A stretch of 64,000 bases of DNA, from the NCBI GenBank assembly GCA_903813345.2, contig CAIIXF020000001.1:55753885-55817884 (forward strand). Direction: 5' to 3'. The DNA comes from Owenia fusiformis. Taxonomy: Eukaryota; Annelida; Polychaeta; Sabellida; Oweniidae. The position numbers and the translations under genes are program-made. Under the pieces are notes generated by a model. It was not told where the DNA came from. It was given only the letters and a program-made list of their open reading frames with translations, and did no database searches. Each line of letters begins with the position of its first letter. Positions within the stretch are counted from its first letter, which is position 1. Positions 1 to 54,313 of this stretch are shown piece after piece.

Positions 1-3000
1 TCAATTCAAAAATTCAAATAAAACTTAATCCAAATAATATTTTTTGTATTGGTTACCTTGACCTCTTACGAGGGGGAGGAGTCCTTGACCTTGATTTGGA
101 TATAGCCTTAGGGGAGTCTACATGTTTCAGTTTTGGGGGTGAAGCCGATCTGGATCCAGAGCGGGATCTACTCATCCACTTCTTGGGTGGAGGTGACTTT
201 GATCGTGAGCGACTTACTTTCTTCTTAACTGGAGTTCTACTACGACGTGGAGTTCTACTGCGTTTCTTTCTGCGCTCTCTGAAAAATTACAAAACATTAC
301 AAAAATATACATTTAAAGCTGTAATTCTCTTAAAAAGCCAAATGATTTCCAGGATAAACATTGTGTTACTAGTTGCAATAAATATTTGTAGGACATTTAT
401 CAATTGTTGAATCAATCTGTCAAGAGTTAGGTGAAAGCAACTACCTTGATCTGCGCCTTTCCCTTGAACGTGACCTTGAACCTCTGCGCCTAGGTGATGG
501 TGACCTGCGCCTTCGCCTCTCCCTTTAAAATAAAATATTTACCATTTAATACAGGGCGTCTATGCCATGATAGGAAGCAAGTGTAATAGTTCTTAGTGCT
601 GTATCTCACATTTTTGCCTTCAAAATATCGTCAACACACAACAGATGAGAAAGAGATTATAAAAGATTAGAGTACCTTGATCTGCTCCTGGATCGTCTCT
701 TTGGAGACCTGGACCTTCTGCGTCTTGGTGACCTTGACCTTTTTCTTCTTGAAGCACTTCTTGAACGTTTTCTGGACCTAATAATGTAAACATTTAAGAA
801 GACCTAAATCTAATGCTGGCATATAAGGCACTTTCACCACCTGCAATTTGTTTCAGACGCCGAACACAAAACGCTGCCACAAAAAATTGAAGAATGCTGA
901 CTGTGATATATCAGTAGTATATTAAGTAGATGACTTGTGAAAGATGTGTTTTCATTCTTTGAACTACACTTAAAACACAGACAATGCATACTATACCTTG
1001 AGCGCCTTCTTGAACGCGATCTCTTCCTTGATCTTGACCTCTTTCTTGATCTTGACCTTCGGCCTCTCGATCTGGACCTACGAGATCGAGATCGGGATCT
1101 GCGACTTCTTGAAAAATCTGAAAAATACAAATATTTTGAGTTTTTCCGAGTTGACCAATGATTAATTTGATCATTTGAAAATTAAGACGATAATATTTCG
1201 ATAGAAAAATTGCACTTTCTACTTATTTGGCTAAATTGATACACATGTACATTGCCTGTACAAAACAACATGCTGATGTTTTAAAACTCGTCTCCAATTC
1301 CAACTGGAATTTTCCTGCATGCTGACAACAAAGCAAAGTAAAGTTACACACTCATAAAGAGTAAATTCGTAACTCAAGCAGAATGTGCTAGTACCATACT
1401 GATGCATGCTAACATTACACTATCTTTCAAATCCAAATACAAGTTAAATAAAACAAGGCATTTCAGGACAAAATGGCACCACCTGACAATGGAAACAAAA
1501 GTGTGACAATTGTTATGAATTCTGAATATTGAAGCTGACCACCAACTGCCAGTCACAAAAATTGGTGATTAGAACAATATAATGAGATGATAACAATTGG
1601 TGGTGACAAAAATTAGTTTGAATAAAATCAAGGAAGCTCAATTTATGATAATTATGAGATGACATGGAAATAAAAATAAGACTTTTAGTATAACCAAAAT
1701 ATTCAGTACATTGCAAGACACAAAGGCCATATAACATAAGGTATTATTAAATGTGGTACACTTATTTTGACTGTTTTGCATGTTTACTTTCCATTCTTCA
1801 TGATAATAAACTGAATTTTGACTTAAATAACACATACAAACTCAGGTTTCTCACCACATTGGATGCACCCCCCCCCCTAATATAAAGTCTAATTTAAGGA
1901 TACCATAGTCTATTGCAATGAACAGAACCCACCAAAGCCTTCATTGACAAAAATGTATGAAGCACATGGGTGAAATTAATCTTCCTCTAGCTTTGTTATG
2001 TCCTTAAATAACATAATTATATCAATTTGCAGACAGTCATCAGTAATTTGAGGAAAATTGAGGAATTCCTGTACATACATTATGTGGGAATGGCAAAGCT
2101 GCAGAATTTTGTGATGAAATGATAGGATGGAATTGTTGAGGTTTCAAAAAATTTATCGGTGAGAAGCCTGAGAGTGTATAACCTTTCAAAAGCATCATTT
2201 TATGATTATTTCTATGGCCTTGTGAAAGCTATATATTTACCTAGCAGGTCTCGTTGCTTGCCTAAATGAAGGTTTGTGGTAAATGGGCAGACTGGCACAC
2301 TTTGTTAACAGTGTACAACATAACAACTCAGATTGCATATCATTCTCAACACATTACAGAGCAGTCAAATAATTAAGGTGGCTTCTGGTGAAATTAGTAA
2401 CTTGTCTTAACACAAGTAGCCACTTTTTCTCTCTTAATTTGATTTATTTGCAATATTGAAGTTAACAAAATTAACTTCTTTCTTCTACAAGTGTTTACAT
2501 TTGGACACCATCCCTGTGACATACATGTGACAAATGAACTTACTAGGATCAATAGCGGCTGCGATAAGAGAGTGGGCATCTTTCACTTTCTTAAGAGCAT
2601 CTTCGATCTCCTTAGCTGAACTAGCATTGTTGCTAGAGGGCTTTGAAATGGCAGACATTGAATGGGACACCCTGGAAACATACATTATAATTGTTAGACA
2701 TGTATTTATGGAATTGTTTATCAGGACATTGTAATATAATATAAAAAACTAAATCGCTTAAATCAATTTGAATCGCTAAATAGTGTAAAGTGTATAGTTA
2801 CTAGAGATTTAGCAATAAAAATAGCATTTAGAAGCACATTACAAAGAGAGTAAATGTATTCTATTGATTCAAGTCTAGTGACTCATTTTTAAGGCTGGGT
2901 ATGTACTTGCATTGCACTCCTTTGTACCTACAGTAGGGGCCTGCTATGATTACCACAATGGATTAAGGAATGCTGGGTATGTACTTGCATTGCACTCCTT

Positions 3001-6000
3001 TGTACCTACAGTAGGGGCCTGCTATGGTTACCACAATGGATTAAGGAATGCTGGGTATGTACTTGCATTGCACTCCTTTGTACGTACAGTAGGGGCATGC
3101 TATGATTACCACAATGGATTAAGGAATGCTGGGTATGTACTTGCATTGCACTCCTTTGTACGTACAGTAGAGGCATGCTATAATTACCACAATGGATTAA
3201 GGAATACTGGGCATGTACTTGCATTGCACTCCTTTGTACGTACAGTAGAGGCATGCTATAATTACCACAATGGATTAAGGAATACTGGGCATGTACTTGC
3301 ATAGCACTCCTTTGTACGTACAGTAGAGGCATGCTATAATTACCACAATGGATTAAGGAATACTGGGCATGTACTTGCATTGCACTCCTTTGTACTTACT
3401 GTAGGGGTCTGCTTTGGAACATAACACCATTATATGTAAGTGCAGTAGCCACACTGGGCTGCTCTGAGAATTCCACATATGCAAATCTTGTAGGTAGATT
3501 CTCATCTCCAGCCATTCTCACATATTTCACCTCTCCAACTTGTGTGAAGAAGCTCAAAAGCTGCTCTGATGTTACCTGGAATGAAGAATCATATCAGAGG
3601 TTTCATTAGCAGAACTTAATTCGATCAGGTTGGTTTTTTTAAATATCATGTTGTTTCAATAAATTTTGCAACCGCCTCCATGTTAATATTACTATTGCAA
3701 ATTCTCATGATATCCCTGAATATATAAATACATTTGATCAAAACATCAATTCTAGCATTTTCAGTAATGTGAAATAGTTGTTTTTCTGGTTTATTAGAAT
3801 TATTACAAAAAACCTCAAAAATATGATTCATGGCAAACATATAGACATGGATTTTATTTTGCCATGGGGGCCATTGCAAAAGACGTGCATCACTTCCTAT
3901 TTTTTGATCTTTTAGCAAAAGTCATGAAACTCTATAATCTGCACCACAAATCATATCAAAGAACCTAAGTGTTTATTCCATTTATAGAGAATGTTCTTAC
4001 GGTTGGTCCGAGATTGCCAACATATATGGTACACCTTATCTCCTCTATCTTGGCTGGGTCTGTTGTGATTGGGAGTGAGGGGTAGGCAGGCAAGTTGAGT
4101 TGCTTTAGTCGCGGGTCAACTGTCATTATAATCTGACTAGACCCTGTGCCTGCAACCTGAAGACAAAAGCAATATTTGTATTTCAAAATTTAATGGAATT
4201 CATGGCATTTCCTTTCATACATAATAAATGTATAGATAATTTACCAAACTAACATCACAATGAATGCTTAAATACAGAATTATACATTTCTCAACTGTAG
4301 CCATGTATCAAAATCTGATTATGAACTAAGCTAAAAACAATAGGAAATTTTTGATTTAGAATAGGTTCTGTATTTCTGGAGTTATAATCCAAAGTTCAAC
4401 ATAACAGGGATCTTGCAAGTGTGAAGGATTTAGGCCCCAACTCAGGCCCTAAGTCCCACTTCAAAATCAGGTCCAAGTCCCCATTTTGAGACTCAGGCCC
4501 AAAGTCTCAGTTTGTGAGATGGAACATTCAACTTGGAGCTCTCCGGATATTGTACTATAGCTTAGGTGTAATAAAGCTTAGAACTTTACTGAACTAGTAA
4601 CCTTATTTATAAGAACCCCACACTACTAAGGTTGACCAAGATCTTGATATAGACCTTGATATCTGACAAACACATACCTGGTTGACAACATTAGTGGGCC
4701 AATCAGATGTCGAGGGAAGGCGCCCAGCAACAGCATTAGCAGGCGCTGCTACCTGCATAGCTTCCGTTTCACTTGGGATTTTGCCTGTAATTATAATAAA
4801 CAGTAACATGAATTACATGAGCCTGGCCATGGGAAAACTGGTCCTCTCTCAAAAATTAAAATTGTGCTGCAAAGCCAAAAATGTGCCCAAGATTAAGAGG
4901 AAAGTGTGCTAAATTCAAATCTGACTTTTTGGTCTATATATGCAAGGAAAAATGGTTAACACATGGCTCATTTGAAAGGTCTCTTTGTGCTTTTTAAGAT
5001 AAACAAAAAAATTAATATTGAAAAAAAATCCCTTTTCCTGTGGCTCTAAACTATATTGTTAATTATATTAGTCTGTAATTCAGGCAATTTTAAGGCAGAA
5101 ACAGAAGTATAATGTATTTTAAAAATAAAATATAATCTTAGATAGTTAAAAATGATTTTTAGTATTTCTTACAAAAAATAGAAAATGCATTTTCAACCAA
5201 AATGTGATATATCTAAAATCATCGCTTGAACAAATGAATACTGACCATCAGACACTGGCACAACAATAAGGGCCCTGTCAATAAATACTGTGTTGGTTAG
5301 ATGTAGGGCAACTCCTGCATGGCTGGAATCCTCAAACTTTATGTAGCAAACTTTTGTAGAACCAGATCGATCACTGAAATGAAAACAATAGATTGTACAA
5401 ACAAATGCCTATCATACTATCATGGTTAGCATGCTGATACTCACCAAGAATATCAACATAATTGAATAATTATGCGCTGAGATGCAATGCCAATAGTGTC
5501 AGTGTACAATTTAGAATAACATAGATCCAGTGGTGTCAAATAAGAAATTTATATGATATTCAACACGTGTCTTCTTACCAGTATATGATAGGCCCTTTCT
5601 TTATGTTACATTATGAAATTTAGCCAAACGCAGCAATGAAGACAATATTCTCCACTGTGGGTCATATCCACTCGACAGTAGCCCCAGGCGGATGTAAATA
5701 TTTAGAGTCGAGTGTAAAATTGAAGTGCCTTGCCACATTGTCTAACATGAAAAACATGAAATTCGTCATTTTTGAATATAAATAGAAAAATTCAATTTTA
5801 AGCACTTTCATAAACATATTACTTTGTTTAAGGACTTTTATTCAGAAGAAAACTGTGAGTATACATGTAATTTATCAACAGTGGCAACACTGTGGCGAGT
5901 GTAATTTTTCATCGGCGAGTGCGAAAACACCGCCACTTGACCAAAACTTTGTGATGTTTCAATTTTAGTTTTTCACATGTTTTGTTTACCTTTTAATTTA

Positions 6001-8042: not shown

Positions 8043-11000
8043 AGAAGTGCTGATATCACGAAATACGAGTAAATGATCACGAAATAAATGCTCTGTTCTG
8101 GAACTAATATTGGTATGTTGAAATCCTTATGGTGCTAGGCATTAAATGATTAGCAACTGAATTATGCAAATGAATTGTAACTAGGTATAAAATGGACTGA
8201 TTCATTGTTACATAGAGTAGGGCAATTTTACTCAAGTCTAGCCAATTCTCAATGGTAGGGTAATTTACCTGACCCCCAGAGACATTGCAAGATCGCAGTT
8301 TACCTTTTGTGAGAATTCTGAGGGATTTGAGGAATTACATAACCAGTTAATTGATCTGAGGGCATTCTTTACATAAATCAATGAGGTATAGATTTGTGAC
8401 ATGAAATCATGTTCCAATGATGCACCATATATTCACCAAAGTGGCTGATATGTGTACTGGTAAATGATATAAGCACAAGAATCTTACCTGGAAATAATGC
8501 ATCCAATTTGATAGTGTATGCATTTAAAATGAGTCCAAAGATTAGCATATACAATTAAATGAGTGCAATATTCTAAAGATAAAGAATAGGTACTTGTGCT
8601 TAAATCATTTTAACAGTTGGATACAGAGAATGGGATTGAGTCACGGCCCTGATACTGACACTTGGACAAAATAAAAACCATGAATTTGCATTTCAGAGAA
8701 CCTATGATTAAACTGTTCTATGATTAGACAGAGTGAGCAAATATAGAAGGCAAAGTGGGTTTCAAGATGCAACATCTCAACAGTACCAATACACTATAAG
8801 AATATTGATAAAAATGTACATCTGTTTTAGATTATTGACTTGTGAACTTTATGTTTTTTCAACATCTTGTTTTCAGATTTTAGGAGAAAATATTATGAGA
8901 CATTTATTCTCCAGGTGACAAATAGTTGGATGTTTCAAGCCATCTATTCTCAGTGGTTCAATTCACATAAAACTGAATGTTTTTAGGTATCATTTAAATA
9001 TTCTTTATTATAGATAGCTCTCTATAGATGCATAGTGTAAAAAGAAGTACAGCTTTTATTTTTACACATTTAATCTCGGCACACACAATAATAAATAGTG
9101 CAATTTATATGTACATATTTTACAATTACGACCATAGTAGATACATATGTACAATTCAACAATAAAAAACTACACTTTGTACATGATTTCTAACAAATAA
9201 AACACTTTCCCCTGATTTGTAACATTCTTTGACACACAAGGTGATAATTTACTGTGTTTTGTCACATTATATAAGTATATCTCTAGTCCATGGAATACAT
9301 GAACAATACACATGCTAACAACAATGATTTATAGAAGCTCAAGTTAGTTGTACTAAAATGAAGTTCATACAATAAATTATGATACATTATATGAAATTAG
9401 GACACATTCAATTCATGCAATAACAAATTGCCTTAGGAAAAGACCATTAGATCTAAGGTATCTTTTTGTTGTTAGTTCTAACCTTTTTATTGTTAGTTCT
9501 AGCCTTTTCTGTTAGTTTCAAACTTTAAATTGTTACTTCTAAACTTTTTCACACTTGAGTGGAATATATTTTGAACAACGCCCAAAAATACGTTTATCTC
9601 AACAACTTGATAAAACAAATAAATATTTGTTATGAACAGTTTCTTTAATGCAAGACCTATTCCATCAATATTGAGTTCCAAAATGTTTTTCTGAAAAAGT
9701 AAGGTCTCAAAGATCAAATGATCTGCCCCTAAACTTGAAGCAGGGTACACTAAGTAATGAACACACATCATGTATCCTGTTATGACTTTGCACAAATCAC
9801 AAATCTAAAAATGATTTTGACAATTTTTCTTAATTTCAATTTAAGAATGCATTGATTTTTTATTACACTAAAATATTGTATTGCTGATGAGCCCTATACT
9901 TTCATCCACATATACAGCCATGTTATTCATCCAACCTTGCCACCAATGACAAAGAATTCAGATTGTTTAAGCATAATATTTCTATTAGGGAGATAGCTGG
10001 TCAGTTTTTGGTATTTGCATGAATATGTGCTTTTCCTGTTGGTCTATTCAAATAGTAAAAATGTTGATTTTATCAAGACTAGCAAAACAGCAACTCCCCG
10101 GAGAAGCAAAACCCATTGAACAAATATATTTATCAAATAACTCATTTGAATTGAGCAGCCATCTTGAAGTTTCCTTTTTGACACCCATAAAGCATCAATA
10201 AAATCCTATTCAAATCAACTGGTACTTTTTGAATTGAGCAGCCATATTGGATATTCCTTCTCAAGCAGAGGTCCTATTCTCATAAGAGATTAGCCATCAA
10301 AATTTAGACCAGATCTGATAACTAGCATTTAAAAAGCATAAAAATTTACCTTTTCCTTGAAGAATGGCATCATTTTGAATTCAGTAGCTATAATGGAAAA
10401 CTTTTTTTATGAGTAAAGGTCCTATGTCCCCAAGGCGAATAAAAGAATCCAAAACATAAACTAGTATTTGACTTATCAAATCAAAGATTACCCTTTACAA
10501 AAAATGGCAGCCATTTTGAATTGAGCGGCCATATTAAATAATCCATTTATGCACATAAAGCCAAAAATTTGAACCAAATCTGTCAATCGGAGTTATTACC
10601 TGGTCAGACGAATTAAAAGATGGACAGACAGCTTCTCTATATCCCTTCCAAACTTTGTTCAGTGGGATACTAAAATTTGTATTTTTAAATGAGATATGGA
10701 AAATAAAGAAAGGAGGAATGTTTAAACCCCTAAATCTGACAAGTTAACTCCCTCAGTCAACAGTAGCATATGTGTGTGATGTTTGTAATAAATTCATTGC
10801 ACTGTTCATGATGCCTTGTAATTTTAGAACAAGATTTGTAAACTAATGCATTTTAGTACATAAGAGTTAATGCATGCTTACTCATCGTATAAAAATAAAA
10901 AATAATGAAATATTTGTGACCAAGTTTTTGCCACTTCTGTAAGTTTGAAACCAAGACTAGTCATACAAAAATATTAGTCATTGTACAAAAACATAGCCTT

Positions 11001-11639: not shown

Positions 11640-13430
11640 TCAATTTAAAGCAAGTTGGAAAATACCTTTTGACCTTAAGAAGAACTTCTGAGAACATGTA
11701 GATGATTTTGAAAAAAAATTAGTCAATTTGAAGCAAGTTGAAAAAAGACTTTTTTGACCTTGAGAAGGTCATTGAAGGTCAAAGGTCAAATCTAAAGTCA
11801 GATTTGAACTTCTGAGAACTTGTAAAGTCAAATTTGAACTTCTGAAAAGATGTAGATGATTTTGAAAAAAAAAATTGGTCAATTTGAAGCAAGTTGAAAA
11901 CAGACCTTTTTGACCTTTTTTGACCTTGAGAAGGTCATTAAAGGTCAAATGTCAAATCTAAAGTCAGATTTGAATTTCTGAGAACATGTAGATGATTTTG
12001 AAAAAAAAAATTAGTCAATTTAAAGCAAGTTGAAAAAAGACCTTTTTGACCTTTTTTGACATTGAGAAGGTCATTGAAGGTCAAATGTCAAATCTAAAGT
12101 CAGATTTGAATTTCTAGAAACATGTAGATGATTTTGAAAAAAAATTTAGTCAATTTGAAGCAAGTTGAAAAAATACCTTTTTGACCTTTTTTGACTTTGA
12201 GAAGGTCATTGAAGGTCAAATGTCAAATCTTAAGTCAAATCTAAAGTCAGATTTGAATTTCTGAGAACACGTAGATGATTTTGAAAAAAAAAATTAGTCA
12301 ATTTGAAGCAAGATGAAAAAATACCTTTTTGACCTTTTTTGACATTGAGAAGGTCATTGAAGGTCAAATGTCAAATCTAAAGTCAGATTTGAATTTCTGA
12401 GAACATGTAGATGATTTTGAAAAAAAAAATTAGTCAATTTGAAGCAAGTTGACAAAAGACCTTTTTGACCTTTTTTGACTTTGAGAAGGTCATTGAAAGT
12501 CAAATGTCAAATCTTAAGTCAAATCTAAAGTCAGATTTGAATTTCTGAGAACACGTAGATGATTTTGAAATTTTTTTTAGTCAATTTGAAGCAAGTTGAA
12601 AACAGACCTTTTTTGACCTTGAGAAGGTCATTGAAGGTCAAATGTCAAATCTTAAGTCAGATTTGAATTTCTGAGAACACGTAGATGATTTTGAAAAAAA
12701 AATGTAGTCAATTTGAAGCAAGTTGAAAACAGACCTTTTTGACCTTTTTTAACCTTGAGAAGGTCATTGAAGGTCAAATGTCAAATCTAAAGTCAGATTT
12801 GAATTTCTGAGAACATGTAGATGATTTTGAAAAAAAATTTAGTCAATGTGAAGCAAGTTGAAAAAAGACCTTTTTGACCTTGAGAAGGTCATTGAAGGTC
12901 AAATGTCAAATCTTAAGTCAGATTTGAATTTCTGAGAACACGTAGATGATTTTGAAAAAAAAATTTTGCCAATTTGAAGCAAGTTGAAAACAGACCTTTT
13001 TGACCTTTTTTGACCTTGAGAAGGTCATTGAAGGTCAAATGTCAAATCTAAAGTCAAATTTGAAGGTCAAATGTCAAATCTAAAGTCAGATTTGAATTTC
13101 TGAGAACATGTAGAAGATTTTGAAAAAAAATTTAGTCAATGTGAAGCAAGTTGAAAAAAGACCTTTTTGACCTTGAGAAGGTCATTGAAGGTCAAATGTC
13201 AAATCTAAAGTCAGATTTGAAGGTCAAATGTCAAATCTAAAGTCAGATTTGAATTTCTGAGAACATGTAGATGATTTTGAAAAAAAATTTAGTCAATGTG
13301 AAGCAAGTTGAAAAAAGACCTTTTTGACCTTGAGAAGGTCATTGAAGGTCAAATGTCAAATCTAAAGTCAGATTTGAACTTCTGAGAAGATGTAGATGAT
13401 TTAGAAAAAAATTGAAGTCAGTCTAAACAG
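11640..13430. repeat. Array of about 13 units of 126-165 bp rich in GAAGGTCATTGAAGGTCAAA
   Basis: The block TAGATGATTTTGAAAAAAA recurs about 13 times between 11699 and 13394. Each recurrence is followed by TTGAAGCAAGTTGAAAA, one or two TTTTTGACC blocks and AGTCAGATTTGAATTTCTGA. Unit length varies because the GACC and AGTCAAAT sub-blocks expand. The array is bounded by TGTCACCACC sequences (about 11617 and a hairpin at 13540-13569) and by a 7-bp ACGCCRG minisatellite at 13465-13505. Diverged copies occur at 22190-22460, 37880-38000 and, inverted, 41940-42250. Confidence 0.9.
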
Positions 13431-27319: not shown

Positions 27320-28575
27320 AGACCAAAAACACATTACACTGATGGGCCATATTGCAACTCGTCGTTCTGATGCTACACGCAATACTATACCACGTTGGAA
27401 CACATACACTGATATCAATACATCGTTCTGATGCTACACGCAATATCACATTAGAACACATTACATTGATACAATATTACAAACAATCGTTGTGATGCTA
27501 CACGCAATACCACGTCGGAAAACATTATACATGCAATACCAAGTTGAAACATTGCAACACATTGTTCTGTTGCTACATGCATTGAATACCACGTTGGAAC
27601 ACATTACGCTGATACCATATTACAAACAATCGTTGTGATGCTACACGCAATACCACGTCGGAAAACACTATACATGCAATACCAAGTTGAAACATATCAC
27701 GCTGATACAATATTGTAACACATCGTTCTGATGCTACATGCAATACCACATAAGAACATATTACACTGATACCATATTACAAACAATCGTTGTGATGCTA
27801 CATGCAATACCACATTAGAACACATTACACTGATACCATATTACAAACAATCGTCGTGATGCTACACGCAATACCACGTCGAAACACACTATACATGCAA
27901 TACCACATTAGAACACATTACACTGATACCATATTACAAACAATCGTTGTGATGCTACACGCAATACCACGTTGGAACACACTTACGTGTAATACCAAGT
28001 TGGAACACATTACACTGATACCATATTACAAACAATCGTTGTGATGCTACACGCAATACCACTTTGGAAGACACTGTACATGAAATTCCAAGTTTGAAGA
28101 TATCACGCTGATACAATATTGTAACACATCGTTCTGATGCTACATGCAATACCACATTAGAACACATCACACTGATACCATATTACAAACAATCGTTGTG
28201 ATGCTACATGCAATACCACATTAGAACACATTACACTGATACCATATTACAAACAATCGTTGTGATGCTACACGCAATACCACGTTGGAACACACTATAC
28301 ATGCAATACCAAGTTGGAACATATAACACTGATACCATATTACAAACAATCGTTGTGATGCTACACGCAATACCACGTTGGAACACACTATACATGTAAT
28401 ACCAAGTTGGAACATATAACACTGATACCATATTACAAACAATCGTTGTGATGCTACACGCAATACCACGTTGGAACACACTATACATGTAATACCAAGT
28501 CGGAACATATTACACTGATACAATATTGTAACACATCGTTCTGATGCTACATGCAATACCACATTGCATCTCAAT
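27320..28575. repeat. Satellite-like array with 406-bp higher-order unit
   Basis: Many copies of related blocks: CAATCGTTGTGATGCTACACGCAATACCACGTTGGAACACA and TACATGCAATACCAAGTTGGAACATA..CACTGATACCATATTACAAA. The CAATCGT block falls at 27784, 27848, 27941, 28033, 28190, 28254, 28347 and 28440. Spacings are 64, 93, 92, 157 and then 64, 93, 93, so the pattern repeats every 406 bp. Open frames inside it are repeat artefacts. Confidence 0.9.
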
Positions 28576-43600: not shown

Positions 43601-45604
43601 TTAAAAGAAGGTAATGTAAGTCATTAGAGGTCTAATATGCAAGTCTCTTAAAATCTCACGAAAAACGAGATTTAGCGAGATTTCAAAAGCTATATGGAAA
43701 CTATACTATTGGTCTGTTAATTTTTGAAAATTGAAATCAAAAGAAGCTAATCACATACACCATGTTAATCTCTGAATAAACTACCATGGCATACCATTAC
43801 GATTTGAGTATGGATTAAAAGACAAATGAGGCCTCTAATAGCGTATAATTCTTGCTCAAACCAGAGTAGTACTTTAGTCAATCCAATTACATTTATATTG
43901 CTTTATTAGTGATAAACATATTCTCATCTCAACCCGTTTATTAAGGACTTATATTTAATCTGACAGTTTCAAATCCCACTCGTCTCATATCATCAAAGAA
44001 TATGGGCAATGGATCACGGAACTTGCTTGATTTTGTTTCAAATATGGATCGATACATAACTGCTGTATTTTCCCACTTATCTGCAAGCGTGGCATAATAT
44101 GTGGGGGATTGTTATGGTCCTATCAATCTGTCTCTTAGAAGTACTCATATGAAACTATGTTCTTAGACGTTTTTTGTTCCAAGTGGTTTTCAGAAAATAA
44201 CCTCTTCTGATATGAGTTTTCAACAGTGCTTTAAGTTTCGGGGAACACTTATGTATAAAGTGTGTGTATTTGTATTCAAAGTACGTGTATTTTACATATA
44301 TTTGCGTTGATCATTCCCTTGCATACGATATATCATAAGAGAGTTGCTAGATATTAACAACTCTAACGTAATGCAGATATTAATATGCATGGATGTGTCT
44401 TGTAATTGTTTCTTTTGTCATATCCGATATCTCGTTTTCATCTCGGATGAAACAGAATTTCGGTCTTTGAATTCCAGTTACGTTCCATTTATTCTCAGTC
44501 ATTCCACGTAATCATTCAGTTGTAGACATTAGTATGTAAGGTAGCATTTGTACCGTGTAATGATAGTAGATTATAGAACAAGATGCTCATTCGAAAAACT
44601 GGGACTTGGTGGGACTCCGTCGAAATTTGCTCCTACGGGCCTTACCCCCATCGATTCCCACGTGGAAAAGCTGCATGGAGTTCCAGGAGTTAACTATATA
44701 TCAATGAACATGGCGTCTATGGAGGTCCCACCATGCCCATTGGTCTCCATTGAGCTTTAGGGCCAAAACATACTTTTTAAAACGATCGACTCTAATAATG
44801 TCAAATATTCATGCAACCCGTGCTAAAAATTTCCAACAATACAAAACACATTTCAAGTATGGCTACGAACTTTGTAAATATGAGTTGCGAATTTTTGTTT
44901 TTATAGGAACAAATCCAGAAACCCCTGGCATGTGTATACGAGAGAAGGAAGTTGATCACTGTCGTTCTGATGAAGAATGCCCACAAGACTACATTTGTTC
45001 CGTGGTTGACGTGAGAGGCCTCGTAAGGTCTAAAGAAGTCATCACTCGCTGCGAGATAGATTCGTTCAATATTAAAAAGATTCATTTGCGTGGTGAAGGT
45101 AACCATCATAGCATATCATATTGTCGTCCCTAGATTAGAGAGACATCTTTAAAATTCAAAGGTAGTATCACATACATTGATAAAAATGAAATAAACTATG
45201 GTCTGTCTGGAATATTTGGGTGGACCTCCTATAGGGTAATGAACAGAATAGACACTTTAATCATCCGGAAAACTATGGCTTTTCTCATGTTTTTCTCATA
45301 ATTTGTACGTGTGTCGAGGATAGAAATATTGAGATTTGCTTAAAAATTGGTACTATATATTTTTGAGTCTACAGTTCATACAGACCACCTTTAGAAGGCT
45401 ACGAAATATAATTGTCATTTATATTTGAACAACAGTATATATTTTATGTATTTTGTAGGCGACCAGTGTCTTGATAGCTTAGACTGCGAGCCTGGCTTGT
45501 GTTGTCAGGATGTCAGGAGATGGCGGCAGCCACTCCGAAGAATATGCGACCAGAAAAGGCGATTCACGAAATGTGTGACGGAGAATGATGTTCGAAAACG
45601 ATAG
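33956..45604 (+). CDS. Secreted cysteine-rich prohormone, prohormone-3/ITG-like family
   Basis: Exons: 33956-33959 (ATG G, donor GTAAGT; tentative), 41103-41203, 42671-42755, 44907-45098 and 45459-45604. The four downstream exons join in phase with GT-AG sites and end in TAG. The product is about 175 residues. Exon 2 encodes a hydrophobic signal peptide (AKLVIFGVVISITIQVIAG) then DETKWNPLRNTYYK. Later exons are cysteine-rich: CYNSGQCCDGLICAEQFGNR, DHCRSDEECPQDYICS, CLDSLDCEPGLCCQDVRRWR and a final C. The GLCCQ..RR..R.IC pattern is what I recall of insect prohormone-3 (ITG-like peptide) and resembles the colipase fold of Dickkopf C-termini. It is probably a secreted neuroendocrine factor. Exon 1 is the weak point, chosen because it is phase 1 and gives an immediate start before the signal peptide. 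A Dickkopf/prokineticin-like protein is the alternative. Confidence 0.7.
35000..35090. repeat. Imperfect 16-18-bp minisatellite
   Basis: Five to six copies of a unit like GGGATTCGGAACCAAT, with varied bases (GGAATTCGGAAAAATGA, GATTCGGACCACG, GATTCGGATCATTAA). It lies in the large first intron of the prohormone gene. The plus-strand open frame across it is repeat-derived. Confidence 0.7.
35819..36888. mobile_element. Mariner-type fold-back element with two inverted transposase tails
   Basis: Ends are CAGGGTGGTCCAAAAAATGG and, inverted, TTTTTGGACCACCCTG, with TA on both sides (35817-35818, 36889-36890). Arms are about 240 bp or more. Inside, the minus strand at 36060-36140 reads AFDQFISKLRAIIDQNGGHI and the plus strand near 36570-36650 reads AIDQFRPELRATIDQNDGHI, each followed by a stop. 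Both are the same transposase C-terminus in opposite orientation. No catalytic core is left. Confidence 0.87.
37580..37614. repeat. (TTTC)n microsatellite
   Basis: About eight copies of the tetranucleotide in the large prohormone intron. Confidence 0.9.
37680..38060. repeat. Diverged copy of the 11.6-13.4 kb repeat, inverted
   Basis: Contains TTTTTCAACTTGCTTCAATTTGACCGATTTTTT and AAAATCATCTACAAAGTCCCAGGATTCCAAATCTGA, the reverse complement of the tandem unit. One to two units only. Confidence 0.65.
38748..38842. repeat. Hairpin, about 20-bp stem
   Basis: CTAGCTACAAGCCCTTGTG at 38748 is complementary to CACAGGGGCTTGTAGCTAG ending at 38842, separated by a CT/GA-rich loop. Possibly the ends of a tiny MITE. 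Confidence 0.6.
39541..39838. mobile_element. GC-rich MITE with CGGTCACAT ends
   Basis: The left end AACCTCGGTCACATTTGCTC pairs with the right end, whose reverse complement is TATGCCTCAGTTACATTTGATC. The interior contains several ACGGCCGYCR blocks in both orientations plus an internal end-like sequence (GAGCAAATGTGACAGAGCC, 39726-39744), suggesting a nested or duplicated element. Ends resemble those of the Harbinger-like element at 55741. Confidence 0.6.
41320..41582 (+). pseudogene. FLYWCH-like zinc-finger remnant in a prohormone intron
   Basis: The frame 41328-41582 (84 codons) reads VKRTRFDGFTFHN, SKTTLSYTFLERGSDTCNYK and CERKKHTHVNM. This has the order of a FLYWCH domain (hydrophobic-DG-F, aromatic pair, C, then HxH), but the first W-x-C is replaced by Y-T-F, removing one zinc ligand. 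It sits between prohormone exons 41103-41203 and 42671-42755 on the same strand. No start context or flanking exon is recognised. It may be a decayed retro- or transposon-derived gene fragment, or a chance resemblance. Confidence 0.3.
41930..42260. repeat. Inverted copy of the GACC repeat with TGTCACCACC-type end
   Basis: Two units of the 11.6-13.4 kb repeat occur in reverse orientation (TTTTCAACTY.., AAATCATCTACAAGTTCTCAGAA, ATTTGACCTTCAATGACCTTCTCAAGGTCAAA). They are bounded on the right by AGGTGGTGACATTTTTTCATGTCAATGCATTG, the mirror image of the boundary at about 11596-11628. This supports a mobile element that carries the tandem units inside. Confidence 0.7.
43100..44890. other. Prohormone intron 3, nothing else supported
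   Basis: AT-rich sequence without supported features. The plus-strand frame at 44548-44760 has no start context or splice logic and is treated as chance. Confidence 0.5.
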
Positions 45605-49400: not shown

Positions 49401-52400
49401 TCTTTCCTGGAAACCATCGCTGAATGGTACTTTATTAAGCAGCATCCGTTTCATACTGAGGAATTTCTTAGTTTCGCTGTTACACGTGCGTATGGATTTA
49501 AACTTGTCTTTGACACAAGAAGTCGAGCTCATAAGAAATCTGTAATGCACAGATGCGTTTGGACGAATAATTAATGCTGATTTGATGATAATATTAAAAA
49601 GTAAGAGACATACATATTGAGCCATGGCCAAGTGTGGTGCTGGTCTTGATAATATGATGGGAGATTTACGTACTTTTATAACATATGATAACAATTACTA
49701 TATGTATATTTTTATTGGACTTATGCGTACCGACATGTTTTGTTGCCTTCAAGTTCAAGAAGTGTTCTGTTGACGCTTGGGTCATCTGGATCTGGTCGCC
49801 CTGTTCGATTTTGCTGAGCATCCAAGTCAGCCGAACATTTGTCAATGGCAGTCATTTGAGATCCCGTGAGGCAGGACGTGTTAACTTTGGACAAGACTGT
49901 AATTATAAAGAAAATAAAAAAATTGAGATGTGATGAACGCCACAGAAAGCCCATCCTGAGAAACTATGTCCTTCTTCTAGTTCCTTTCTATTTAAAAAAC
50001 AACAAAAAACCGTGATGAGTATCAGAATGTAGAAAATCAAACGGTTTAGAATCTTTTGAATATACGCACCGTGAAGTCGTCGATCGCATTCTTAATCAAT
50101 GTAGAAATTCACTAGACATGGGAATAGTAATCGGAGGCTTCTATCATATATTAAGTTTATTTATTACTATCATTTCTGCTATATCATAAATGATATTGGT
50201 AGTACTCTTCAATATGTGTGTTTCCAGGATGTTTGAAATGTCAAAATTCATTGGAAACAGGTTTGACATGGATTATGAATGCAGGAGGATTGGCTCCCAG
50301 GGTTCCAACTCGATATTCTGCCATATATGGAGATGTCGTGATTACAAAATTCAAATTCAACAAGGAGGATTGGCGGCCAGAATGCAACATCGATATTCTT
50401 TAACAAAGCTAGCGTCAGTCCTGGAGTCGTAAAAAAGTGATCGATATATAATAAAAAGTTAAACAATAGTATAATAATAGAAAATAACGACATTCTGACA
50501 TTTTAATCATCGAGTTGCGTCCCTGGGAGTGGGGGGGGGGGGGGGTTGAACCAAGGATGATTGGAAGCCGTTATTCAAACTCGATACTTTTTTTGAAGAG
50601 TAGAACTGCTAAGGAAGCTTGAATAGTACCAAAATATTAGTAATGACCATATTTTAAAGAAATACTCGGTCCAAAGAGAACATTATCACCCTTGGTATAC
50701 GCAGCTAACGAAAGTTGAACGGTACGGGTCAAAAGCTGGACCGGTACGGGTTAACGGTTTTATTTGAATTTAAAATAGCCATAACTTGCTCAATATTGAC
50801 TTCCTCGTGTCTAATTTGAAATATATGATGCCTCCCGATGCTTTTAAGTACCCCAATTTTTTACAGATTTTTAAACGGACCAAAACTCTCTAAATGCGCA
50901 TTTATGCTCTTTTCTCTCGAGAACGACTGTCTCATTTTCACGATAACTTTTATTTAGTACTTCTAACTTATAAGATCTATTTTCCCCATCAAGGTATGAT
51001 GTAAGTGACATGCTATTTACATCTTGTGAGTTTCAATGACGCGCATTTGATTTTATAAAAAATGCCAAACTTTGTGACAAAGAATTTCATCAGCTATTGC
51101 CCCGAACCGGTCCGTCTTCTCGCTGCAAGCAGATTGCCCCGAACCGGTCCGTCTTCTCGCTGCAAGCAGGAGGAAATTCTTTGTCACAAAGTTTGGCATT
51201 TTTTATAAAATCAAACGCGCGTCATTCAAACTCACAAGATGTAAATAGCATGTCATTCACATCATACCTTGATGGGGAAAAATAGATCGTATATGTTAGA
51301 AGTACTAAATAAAAGTTATCGTGAAAATGAGACAGTCGTTCTCGAGAGAAAAGAGCATAAATGCGCATTTAGAGAGTTTTGGTCCGTTTAAAAATCTGTA
51401 AAAAATTGGGGTACTTAAAAGCATCGGGAGGCATCATATATTTCAAATTAGACACGAGGAAGTCAATATTGAGCAAGTTATGGCTATTTTAAATTCAAAT
51501 AAAACCGTTAACCCGAACCGGTCCAGCTTTTGACCCGTACCGGTCAATTTTCGTTAGCTGCGTATACCAAGGGTGATTATAGAAATATTTTTACTAAATT
51601 GTTCCACTGCAGGCAATGGAGTATCGAGTTTGAATAATGGCTGCCAATCCTCCTTGGATTGAACTTACTATTTAAAATGGTCGGAGAAGCTGCTTCTGAT
51701 TTGTTACATATGTGCTTGTACGCTGTAGCAAACTTGGAGAAGATTGTGTTGTCAGCTCTGAAGACATCTCTGTGCACACAGCCCGTCGTTTGGCTCATAA
51801 CAATTGATTTTGCAGCCTCAGCAGTCTTGTTCAAAACGCTGAAAGGTTGTTATTAATTACTAGATATGCTGTATGTAACAGTTTTTGGGCAATGTGTGGG
51901 CGGTTTTTAGGGGCTTGTTGTAAAATATTCATTTCTTTTGTGAAACAAGTTTTACTGAGCCCACGGATTTTGCCAAGGGGAGAGGTGGGTTTAAAAATTC
52001 AATTGGAGTTCATGTTTGACAATTTAGGGCCAGAATCACTTGAAAAGTGCTTAAGAATGGTGAAACTGGTGCATGATTTTGGAGTAAACCTTGGCCAGGG
52101 GGAGGGGGGAGGGGTCGAACGGACCCGGGCGGAATTGTGTAGATGCAATATTCTTCACGCCTTCAATATAAAATACATGTGGTCATAAACAGGACCATTT
52201 AAACTAGCTTTTCTAACGATTCTAAATAACCACAAACAATGCAAAACCGTTTCCTATACTTTACCACATAGAACACGGTTCCACATGGGAAATCAGGTAA
52301 GGTGAAACAGACTTTATAAGTATACTTACTGACACATTTGGCCTAGCAACGTTGTTAATGAATTGCTGTTTGGGTTGTCTTTTAGCATTCGACGAAACGC

Positions 52401-54313
52401 CGCACCCTCACTCTCGAGGAAAACGTGAGCGGCCCCATGGTCTGTTCCATTCGTTCGATTCAAAAATTCCCCTAGCTCTTGTTGAAAGAGAGCTTTATCA
52501 CATCCACTGGACTGCTGCGCCGTAACTATGGGCACTGCAATTGTAAGGTATCATTATATGTATTCAATCAACATTATAGTTTGCGTTATGATGTATGTGT
52601 TTTAGTCCCTTAATTTCCATTCATTCAACATATCACCTCACCTTTTATTTCAAGAAAAATAACATGACACAATCCGACAAAGCGGAGTTGACAAAACACA
52701 AGATTATGGTTGTTCAACGGATGGTTCAATGATATTCAGGGTGGTCCAAAAAAGGAACCCTTGCAACAAGCTATATCTCAGTTATTACTTGCATTCATGG
52801 GCTAATACTCTCACATGTTTTTGGGGAAGGTCTAAAGTTTTTGTTGGTACCATAAGGGACACTGCAGTCTTAAGTCTTGCAGAAGTTACATGGCATCAAC
52901 AGACATACATGCCTGATAGTGATAAATGGGTGATGAGCTCAATCCATGCTCCATGGTTCTGGATGGTTCTGCTCAAATAACATTAGATACACAACCGATC
53001 CACAACCACATGGAACCTAACAGCGAGAATCTACCTGGACCCACAGGAATTCCAGATGTAATCCACATGGATTTTAGGCACGTTAATTCACGTGGAATTG
53101 GGAAAGTTTTTCCATGTTTATTCGCGTGGAATCCTTGCGAAATATTCAAGTTAAAATGTGTGACAATAATGTGGATCCATGTGGATCAAATTCAGATGGA
53201 AATAGTGTGAATTTTATGTGGAATCTATAGCTACTTGCTACACATATGCAAGTGGATTCCATGTGGATCATATTGCATTGGGGGTGTACAACAGTTTTTT
53301 CCTTAAAATAAAGAAAAATGTTTTAGAATTACAAAACACCCCTAGATATACTTGAACGAGCAATGAAGAGCTTCAACATTCGCGTTGCAGTTATCCAGAA
53401 CCATGGAGCATTAATTGAGCATATAATCAGGGATCTGTCGATGCCATGTAACTTCTGCAAGACTTAATACTAAGTGACTTTTATGGTACCCACAAAAACT
53501 TTCAGCCTATTAATGCAAGTGATATCTGAGATACAGCTTGCTGCAAGGGTTCACTTTTTTTGGACCACCCTGTATATCATGAACAGATTTGTATACAAAG
53601 CGGTGTAGAAAATACACAAGATTATGGTCGTTCGATGAATGTTGAAATACAAACATGAATGTTTTTGAATATCATAAATATGTGTGTACAGTGTATGATG
53701 TGTATTGATGATTATGAAGCATATACTAGTGATTTCATTGAACAAGCAATATGCATAAAATGATAACATATTGGGAGATAAATGACAAAAATCTGATTTC
53801 GATCTTTGTTGTTGCCTTGTCACGCCCATTCTGAACCTACCACAACCCTTGGTATTACATGCAATGAATCATTAGTCTTAGGGAAAAGCATGAGGTATAG
53901 AACAGTAAACATTTCCAATTTCTAATCAAAATTATGAAAACAGATTGTATTGTATTGTATTGTATTGTATTGTATTGTATTGTATTGTATTGTATTGTAT
54001 TGTATATCTTTATTCCCCATAATAAAATGGAGATACAACTCATATGTACAGTAAATGTAAAATAAAAGTTCAAATTATGACAACATTATATACATGTTAA
54101 ACATATAAAAAAGCTATTCATCAAGCGAAATGCTGTTAAAGTTGAGTCAGAAACTGTTTTGTAGTGCAATGAAAAAATATAATCATATCATATTTGATAA
54201 ATTTTCTGGAAGCAATTTTAAAAAGCGAAGCTGACAACACATTTTCCAAATAAAACGAAATTGATGAACTTACCGATGATCAGGCACCCCGCTAAAAAGA
54301 CACCTATTCCCAT
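46490..54313 (-). CDS. GPI-anchored cysteine-containing secreted protein, 541 aa, family unknown
   Basis: Eleven exons: 54274-54313, 52330-52534, 51669-51838, 49731-49896, 49371-49539, 48877-49092, 48195-48336, 47555-47785, 47389-47421, 47156-47244, 46490-46654. Every junction is GT-AG, phases are 1,2,1,2,0,0,1,1,1,0, and the sum is 542 codons including TAA. The N-terminus is a signal peptide (MGIGVFLAGCLIIVPIVTAQ). The ectodomain has scattered cysteines and NxT/NxS sites; the exon 2 and 3 products look helical (C-DKALFQQELGEFLNRTNG; C-VHRDVFRADNTIFSKF). Basic motifs RKKRAS, RSKKRG and RRKRAT suggest proprotein-convertase cleavage. The C-terminus has an acidic stretch, GGAGGESASA and a terminal hydrophobic segment ending without basic residues, as expected of a GPI-anchor signal. 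It is convergent with the prohormone gene, stops 886 bp apart. I recognise no family; a surface or immune-type role would be guesswork. Confidence 0.8.
48435..48672. mobile_element. G-run MITE with CATTGGCGGATCCAG end
   Basis: The left end CATTGGCGGATCCAGTGGGGG pairs with the right end, whose reverse complement is CACTGGCAGATACAG. Flanking 5-mers are CCTTG (48430-48434) and CCTCG (48673-48677). Inside are G and C runs and GGGCCCAAA motifs. It lies in intron 6 of the GPI-protein gene. Confidence 0.65.
50280..50660. repeat. Diverged copies of a GGAGGATTGGC repeat, with poly-G
   Basis: GGAGGATTGGCTCCCAGGGTTCCAACTCGATATTCT (50283) and GGAGGATTGGCGGCCAGAATGCAACATCGATATTCT (50367) are two copies. 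A third is at about 50559 (GATTGGAAGCCGTTATTCAAACTCGATA), and an inverted one is at 51618-51660 next to an exon donor. A run of about 17 G lies near 50530-50546. All sit in the same intron as the giant palindrome. Confidence 0.65.
50682..51580. repeat. Giant near-perfect palindrome, about 405-bp arms
   Basis: The arm 50682-51088 and its reverse complement 51173-51580 are almost identical over about 405 bp, with a few substitutions. The 84-bp spacer holds two exact tandem copies of a 37-bp sequence beginning ATTGCCCCGAACCGG (51096-51132 and 51133-51169). No transposase frame is present. It lies wholly inside intron 3 of the GPI-protein gene, so the pre-mRNA would contain a very long hairpin. 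Confidence 0.95.
51890..52140. mobile_element. Decayed copy of the CAGGCCCGTAGCCAGG-type MITE
   Basis: The core AATTTAGGGCCAGAATCACTTGAAAAGTG..GGTGAAACTGGTGCATGATTTTGG..TTGGCCAGGGGG matches the interior of the intact element at 58956-59173. Terminal repeats are no longer recognisable. It lies in intron 2 of the GPI-protein gene. Confidence 0.55.
52737..53572. mobile_element. Mariner-type fold-back element with inverted transposase tails
   Basis: Ends are CAGGGTGGTCCAAAAAAGGAACC and, inverted, ..TTTTGGACCACCCTG. Arms are about 230 bp. TA follows the right end, and the left flank has decayed to TT. The plus strand near 53390 reads RVAVIQNHGALIEHI, and the reverse complement near 52945-52985 reads IQNHGAWIELI, the same transposase tail in opposite orientations. 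The middle is rich in CCACATGGAWTCC motifs in both orientations. It lies in intron 1 of the GPI-protein gene. Confidence 0.83.
53944..54004. repeat. (TGTAT)n microsatellite
   Basis: About twelve uninterrupted copies of the pentamer TGTAT in intron 1 of the GPI-protein gene. Confidence 0.97.

Follow-up and report, generated by a model that had tools for sequence, protein, structure and literature searches.

An 889-bp palindrome in an apparent intron of Owenia fusiformis is very probably a recently inserted foldback-type MITE

Introduction

Palindromic MITEs are short, non-coding elements with terminal inverted repeats and target-site duplications that occur in many near-identical copies. The terminal repeats of MITEs are usually short. 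Elements of the P superfamily (Galileo type) make target-site duplications of 7-8 bp, while Transib and some hAT transposons make duplications of 5 bp and have CA...TG ends. Transib has a RAG1-like transposase and ends of the CACWATG type.

The closest described systems are two foldback elements of Drosophila. As portrayed in sections of one report, Galileo (P superfamily) has long inverted arms, non-coding copies with two arms, solo-arm copies, internal tandem repeats in variable number and sequence exchange among copies, and some of its copies carry transposase sequence (PMC3573991). Excerpts from the account of Tetris/DAIBAM of Drosophila virilis describe an apparently non-autonomous foldback element with variable internal tandem repeats; those of Tetris gave rise to satellite arrays, and Tetris has duplications of 8-10 bp, repeats of ~220 bp within its arms and three structurally complete copies (PMC4079207).

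The palindrome analysed here lies in a 64,000-nucleotide stretch of DNA from the annelid Owenia fusiformis, to which we refer as the window. The family to which it belongs shares with Galileo the long inverted arms, the non-coding two-arm copies, the solo-arm copies, the variable internal tandem repeats and the exchange of sequence among copies. However, its duplications are mostly 5 bp long, its arms nearly meet and its tandem repeat is the spacer itself; the likeness between the two is one of structure. With Tetris it has in common the foldback structure and the variable tandem repeats, and a relative of the family (L059) has an array of about 25 17-bp units near its terminus; it differs in its mostly 5-bp duplications, its 37-bp central repeat and its hundreds of termini. 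In contrast to the usual MITEs, the inverted repeats of the Owenia element fill all but 78 bp of its length. Foldback-type MITEs are a known kind of element, as exemplified by Galileo and Tetris, and the Owenia family is new within it. A literature search for the string CACCCTTGGTAT gave only matches that were unrelated by title and abstract; we do not claim that the family is missing from print or from repeat libraries.

The case illustrates that a striking intragenic palindrome can be accounted for once its copies are counted and their borders inspected. With its arms of ~400 bp and hundreds of young members, the family makes it possible to measure directly the breakage, flipping and decay of palindromes in the genome of an animal, and could show whether the host converts inverted repeats into small RNAs.

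Results and Discussion

The palindrome and its host gene

The palindrome is 889 bp long (50687-51575), runs from CACCCTTGG to CCAAGGGTG and is flanked by 5-bp ATTAT duplications within 50682-51580 (Table 1), an interval that is tiled by inverted repeats of 306 nt (98%) and 112 nt (96%). Its arms differ by 10 substitutions in 405 positions (about 97.5% identity) and, judging by their lengths (405 and 406 bp), by one missing base. The two central units are 100% identical and start ATTGCCCCGAACCGG. These coordinates bear out the preliminary description of the locus, which had reported a palindrome of nearly 900 bp with almost identical arms of about 405 bp and exact 37-bp tandem repeats at its centre; the end points given there, 50682 and 51580, are the outer edges of the target-site duplications. 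The subterminal motif pairs are suspected, from their sequence, to be the region bound by a transposase. The longest stop-to-stop frame listed inside this copy has 81 codons (51040-51285), and a search of the window against Rfam gave no matches at the gathering threshold.

Table 1. Features of the palindromic element and of its host gene in the window.
Feature	Position	Strand	Basis or remark
Left target-site duplication ATTAT	50682..50686	.	Identical 5-mer at 51576-51580
Left arm, 405 bp, starts CACCCTTGGTATACGCAGCTAACG	50687..51091	+	Inverted repeat; terminus repeated genome-wide
Left subterminal motif pair, family consensus TTGACCGGTACGGGTC + TGGACCGGTACGGGTT	50715..50752	+	Read directly
AGCT, opening 4 bp of the 78-bp spacer	51092..51095	+	Consensus arms stop after 406 bp
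Whole spacer, AGCT and two 37-bp units	51092..51169	+	Consensus of full copies
Central 37-bp unit, copy 1	51096..51132	+	Tandem-repeat reading
Central 37-bp unit, copy 2	51133..51169	+	Tandem-repeat reading; unit number 1-6 across copies
Right arm, 406 bp, inverted copy of left arm, ends CCAAGGGTG	51170..51575	-	Inverted repeat
Right subterminal motif pair	51510..51547	-	Read directly; mirrors 50715-50752
Right target-site duplication ATTAT	51576..51580	.	Identical to left 5-mer
Host intron holding the insertion, GTAAGT...TTACAG, 1,772 bp	49897..51668	-	Splice sites; hand-made model
Host exon upstream of the intron	51669..51838	-	Open frame across splice sites, hand translation
Host exon downstream of the intron, own donor uncertain	49731..49896	-	Open frame, splice signals
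First host exon seen	52534-52330	-	Open frame and splice signals

The preliminary description had also placed the palindrome inside intron 3 of a gene. An intron is indeed apparent from the well-formed minus-strand splice sites of our hand-made model, in which the reading frame is kept across both junctions of three exons upon hand translation and becomes ambiguous past the third exon. The acceptor of the most upstream of these exons is in phase 1, so that at least one further upstream exon is expected, which makes the intron number plausible. The three joined exons gave no matches in Pfam.

A 38-nt inverted pair (92%; 50551-50588 and 51620-51657) brackets the element 40-100 bp outside its ends, with direct cousins further to the left (50283-50319 and 50363-50399). 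Given this pair, the element seems to have landed within or next to another repeat. Elsewhere in the window, two cysteine-rich frames on the plus strand (44900-45604) have sub-threshold Dickkopf-like Pfam matches (E-values of 0.058 and 0.072) and look, from their sequence, like exons of a secreted protein. Large tandem arrays are found at 11682-13411 (period of about 136/157 bp), 27362-28566 (about 64/93 bp), 2894-3407 (about 78 bp) and 53944-54005 (about 5 bp).

A family with hundreds of copies, fixed ends and 5-bp duplications

A search for the 24-bp terminus in the 498-Mb genome (525 contigs) gave 1,014 matches with at most two mismatches, 524 in forward and 490 in reverse orientation, while the reversed pattern used as a control had no match on either strand. 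Comparison of one arm with the genome, which had been proposed as a check for a mobile family, gave at least 74 matches of 89-100% identity with 40 of 768 candidates scored; the paired arms among the scored matches are mostly spaced by 88-89 bp. The window palindrome is therefore not unique to its host gene but one among hundreds of copies with shared ends, and the proposed check pointed to a mobile family.

We then considered a sample of 40 loci, comprising the window and 39 fetched loci. It should be noted that these loci were those matching the left arm of the window copy best, and that the sample therefore leans to young copies with complete arms. It contains 18 full-length copies (889-890 bp), six two-ended copies with internal deletions and 14 one-ended copies; one of the remaining two is incomplete at the fetched edge (L006) and the other has a single end and an expanded centre (L017). 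The element has fixed termini, CACCC...GGGTG, and all 18 full copies end alike. Exact 5-bp target-site duplications flank 21 of 25 two-ended inserts, namely those at the 24 two-ended loci of the sample and a second small element in L003. Among the four exceptions, L001 matches at 4 of 5 bp, L005 and L024 fit duplications of 6 bp, and L010 has none. In 31 inserts with exact duplications, the second base of the duplication is T in 19 cases and the fourth is A in 21. On the largest contig (C1), the 100 exact termini listed form 27 close pairs, nine of which are 889-890 bp long, five 853-860 bp and two 924-926 bp, with 11 of other lengths. A search with a variant terminus pointed to 28 places (control 0), five of them within loci already examined, and the 20 loci fetched from this search yielded further family copies as well as relatives.

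The repeated termini, the full-length copies and the 5-bp duplications at two-ended inserts lead us to regard the family as foldback-type MITEs. Two arms of 406 bp within 890 bp and an internal 37-bp tandem unit present one to six times are what is expected of a foldback element, and fixed inverted ends, duplications of fixed length and a high copy number with low divergence are what is expected of a MITE. We are thus highly confident that a palindromic DNA transposon of this type, non-autonomous and without coding sequence, inserted here recently. The fixed ends, the duplications, the hundreds of copies, the consensus arms that match over 406 bp and the independent decay of the arms (see below) have to be weighed against the absence of a transposase from the matches examined, the 4 of 25 exceptions among the duplications and the bias of the sample towards the window's arm. 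Because the same palindrome is found at other loci with differing flanks and with duplications of their own, an assembly artefact is very unlikely.

A transposase made elsewhere would cut the element out and paste it in, presumably by recognising the terminus of ~18 bp and probably also GGACCGGTWCGGG-like subterminal motifs. The central 37-bp unit contains a related motif and varies in number like a small satellite. The palindrome would later tend to break near its centre, giving rise to one-armed copies. Most likely, the element is a passive passenger in the host gene, to whose pre-mRNA it adds 894 bp (the element and one copy of the target site) and a stretch able to form double-stranded RNA.

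Search for a transposase partner

By their duplication length and CA...TG ends, Transib and the hAT transposons with 5-bp duplications resemble the Owenia family and are possible drivers of its movement. However, no transposase of these groups was linked to the element, and two copies fit duplications of 6 bp. The end of the element, to be compared with the CACWATG type of Transib, is CACCCTTGG. A transposase with the termini of the element was not found in the subsets of hAT, P-like, MULE and RAG1 matches examined: the downstream flanks of 20 of 138 hAT matches held no convincing terminus, 3 of 8 MULE matches had no link to the element termini, and the RAG1 model gave no matches in a search whose controls were silent too. 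For the 14 hAT matches on C1, the nearest listed terminus is at least 85 kb away. The family does not fit the P superfamily in the features examined: its duplications are mostly 5 bp and, of 13 P-like matches, the five inspected have no paired termini.

Other candidates for an autonomous partner were likewise discarded. The far-apart termini on C1 (L040-L044) belong to copies, single or adjacent, into which other DNA has intruded, including in one case a 1,050-aa frame that we take to be LINE-like. A further search (seven matches, reversed control 1) led to L045-L049, which are rearranged copies together with a 226-bp relative in L045. A 327-aa frame in L083 looks like POP1, a gene of the host genome.

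Two P-like loci, L122 (G000:C4) and L123 (G000:C10), are 99.5% identical over 4.3 kb and each contain a 591-aa frame. They belong to four equally scoring P-like matches, have no link to the termini of the palindrome and look like members of a recently active family.

The arms are young and decay independently

A majority consensus built from the 18 full copies is 890 bp long; its arms match each other at all 406 positions and enclose a spacer of AGCT and two units. Individual copies diverge from it by 0.3-1.9%. These copies were drawn from the best-scoring matches to the window arm, and the family as a whole may be less young than this selection makes it look.

The preliminary description had proposed that the arms are either young or maintained by gene conversion. 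In all 18 full copies, the number of substitutions between the arms is what one obtains by adding up the private changes of either arm. Moreover, among 9,689 position pairs in 52 copies, each of which was mapped by its best match only, 90 changes were found on the left arm only and 101 on the right arm only, none was the same on both arms and one position was changed differently on both. The arms are thus alike because the insertions are young and not because of ongoing gene conversion; the proposal of youth stands and that of conversion is not supported. The identity of about 97.5% between the window arms would agree with conversion at this locus, as would a variant at arm position 90 that is found on either arm and thus points to at least one exchange between arms or flip of the centre within the family. 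Set against the additive divergence in 18 of 18 full copies and the lack of any shared change at 9,689 position pairs, to which L098 is a possible exception, conversion as the cause of the likeness of the window arms is extremely improbable.

The position-90 variant could be read in 24 copies, which comprise 10 T/C (right arm), 8 C/T (left arm), 5 T/T and 1 C/C. If the arms were independent, 4.1 copies with the variant on both arms would be expected and only one was observed. This copy, L098, is a rearranged one of 721 bp that falls outside the best-match count of 52 copies, and it is possibly the one exception to the pattern of changes on one arm only. On the simplest reading, a one-armed variant changed sides with respect to the centre on at least one occasion, which resembles what recombination between inverted repeats would do. 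Alternatively, the same change may have arisen twice independently.

A predicted RNA hairpin

RNA of the element in the sense of the host gene is predicted to fold at -717.9 kcal/mol into a single stem of ~400 bp, compared to a mean of -205.4 kcal/mol (sd 9.0) for 20 shuffled sequences (z = -57). If the intron is transcribed, long double-stranded RNA is thus expected on physical grounds, and this prediction agrees with the earlier claim that the pre-mRNA could form a long hairpin. Such a stem, and its position in an apparent intron, would also be expected if the host retained the palindrome because double-stranded RNA from the pre-mRNA yields endo-siRNAs or is edited. However, any insertion of this family with its hundreds of copies would give the same structure and position, and the 191 changes on one arm without a compensatory change on both in 52 copies give no sign of selection for pairing. 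We therefore consider retention for such a function very unlikely.

One-armed copies

In the 40-locus sample, 12 of the 14 one-ended copies stop between positions 390 and 590 of 890, counted from the intact terminus. Copies had entered this sample by virtue of a complete arm, and L017, omitted because of its expanded centre, would fall in the same interval. A second, fairer sample consisted of 20 unpaired exact termini taken in order along C1, with two earlier-fetched ones skipped; seven of these were set aside, as L103 and L104 were full-length, L106, L108, L116 and L120 two-ended and L109 interrupted. Among the remaining 13 one-ended copies, nine stop at 390-590, compared to an expected 23% (binomial P = 0.0005, with the interval chosen from the first sample and the breakpoints of the second entered by hand). 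The one-armed copies thus tend to look like palindromes that broke near their centre after insertion. Breakage at this point fits the hairpin and cruciform models set out for other systems in parts of PMC3315005, although some one-armed copies may be truncated insertions.

The same clustering, at 12 of 14 and 9 of 13 breakpoints, would also arise if one-armed copies were the ends of a longer autonomous element. In that case sequence past the break should be shared, whereas the 12 copies of the first sample that were compared share nothing there (E 1e-3, up to 500 bp) and the 40 matches listed for the second sample are family arms except for two pairs of 165-194 bp and 81-85% identity, which fit other repeats. 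An origin from a longer element is thus very unlikely, and breakage of palindromes remains our preferred reading.

Three half-elements of 515-520 bp (L046, L116 and L120) retain a single long arm, the centre in whole or in part, and no more than ~16-30 bp of the far terminus. Each carries its own 5-bp duplication, and they are either still mobile or were deleted after insertion.

Central units and subterminal motifs

Counting of the central 37-bp units in 51 loci gave two units in 42, one in seven and six in L017, while the four units of L042 represent two copies within one locus. Length steps of ~37 bp in the pairs on C1 fit one, two or three units, with three-unit lengths fitting 2 of the 27 pairs. 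The central unit matches the subterminal motif at 12 of 14 positions, which was equalled by 15 of 5,000 shuffled units. In the relative L059, ~25 units of 17 bp (ACTGTTGTACCAGTCAC) extend from ~40 bp off the terminus to beyond the fetched edge. This array and the motif match of the 37-bp unit suggest that amplification of subterminal motifs is recurrent in the group. The motifs themselves may bind a transposase.

The amplified 17-bp motif of L059 (L059:1-475; G000:C3:7245500-) is a possible satellite seed. A 54-bp tandem array of ~20 copies is present in L089 (191-1299; G000:C6), where it begins 90 bp inside a terminus of the group.

Older relatives

Related elements have the terminus of the family and carry duplications. 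One of them is the 226-bp element in L045, flanked by a duplication of its own, and a search with it led to older elements among L050-L061. When five older relatives were folded, L053, L057, L058 and the L045 element formed end-to-end hairpins and L056 did not clearly do so. With four of the five folding in this way, the palindromic design probably predates the young family. Compared with the young consensus arm over 92-197 aligned positions, the outer arms of the relatives, with L056 left out, show 69-82% identity. The young family differs from L053, L057 and L058 by 25-31% over the aligned outer arm, a difference that is partly due to decay of the relatives themselves.

These three relatives are hairpins already and have homologous arms, yet they are 25-31% removed from a family whose consensus arms match over 406 bp. 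This raises the rather doubtful, though conceivable, idea that master elements, along their lineage, make their own palindrome perfect again, so that the arms would change together in the masters and decay apart after insertion. A hairpin-capped intermediate could, for instance, be copied into a new perfect palindrome, with the central tandem unit and its relative of the subterminal motif as the variable hinge of the hairpin. If so, this would be a distinct way for foldback elements to persist. A plainer alternative is that an asymmetric, unseen parent produced the palindrome afresh each time. An arm tree of the older relatives, with 1 of 8 inner branches well supported, was too poorly resolved to reveal how the arms pair.

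Lastly, a related element in L092 (101-1776) is interrupted by an insert that we presume, from inspection by eye, to be Tc1/mariner-like, and its outer ATTAA duplication is intact.
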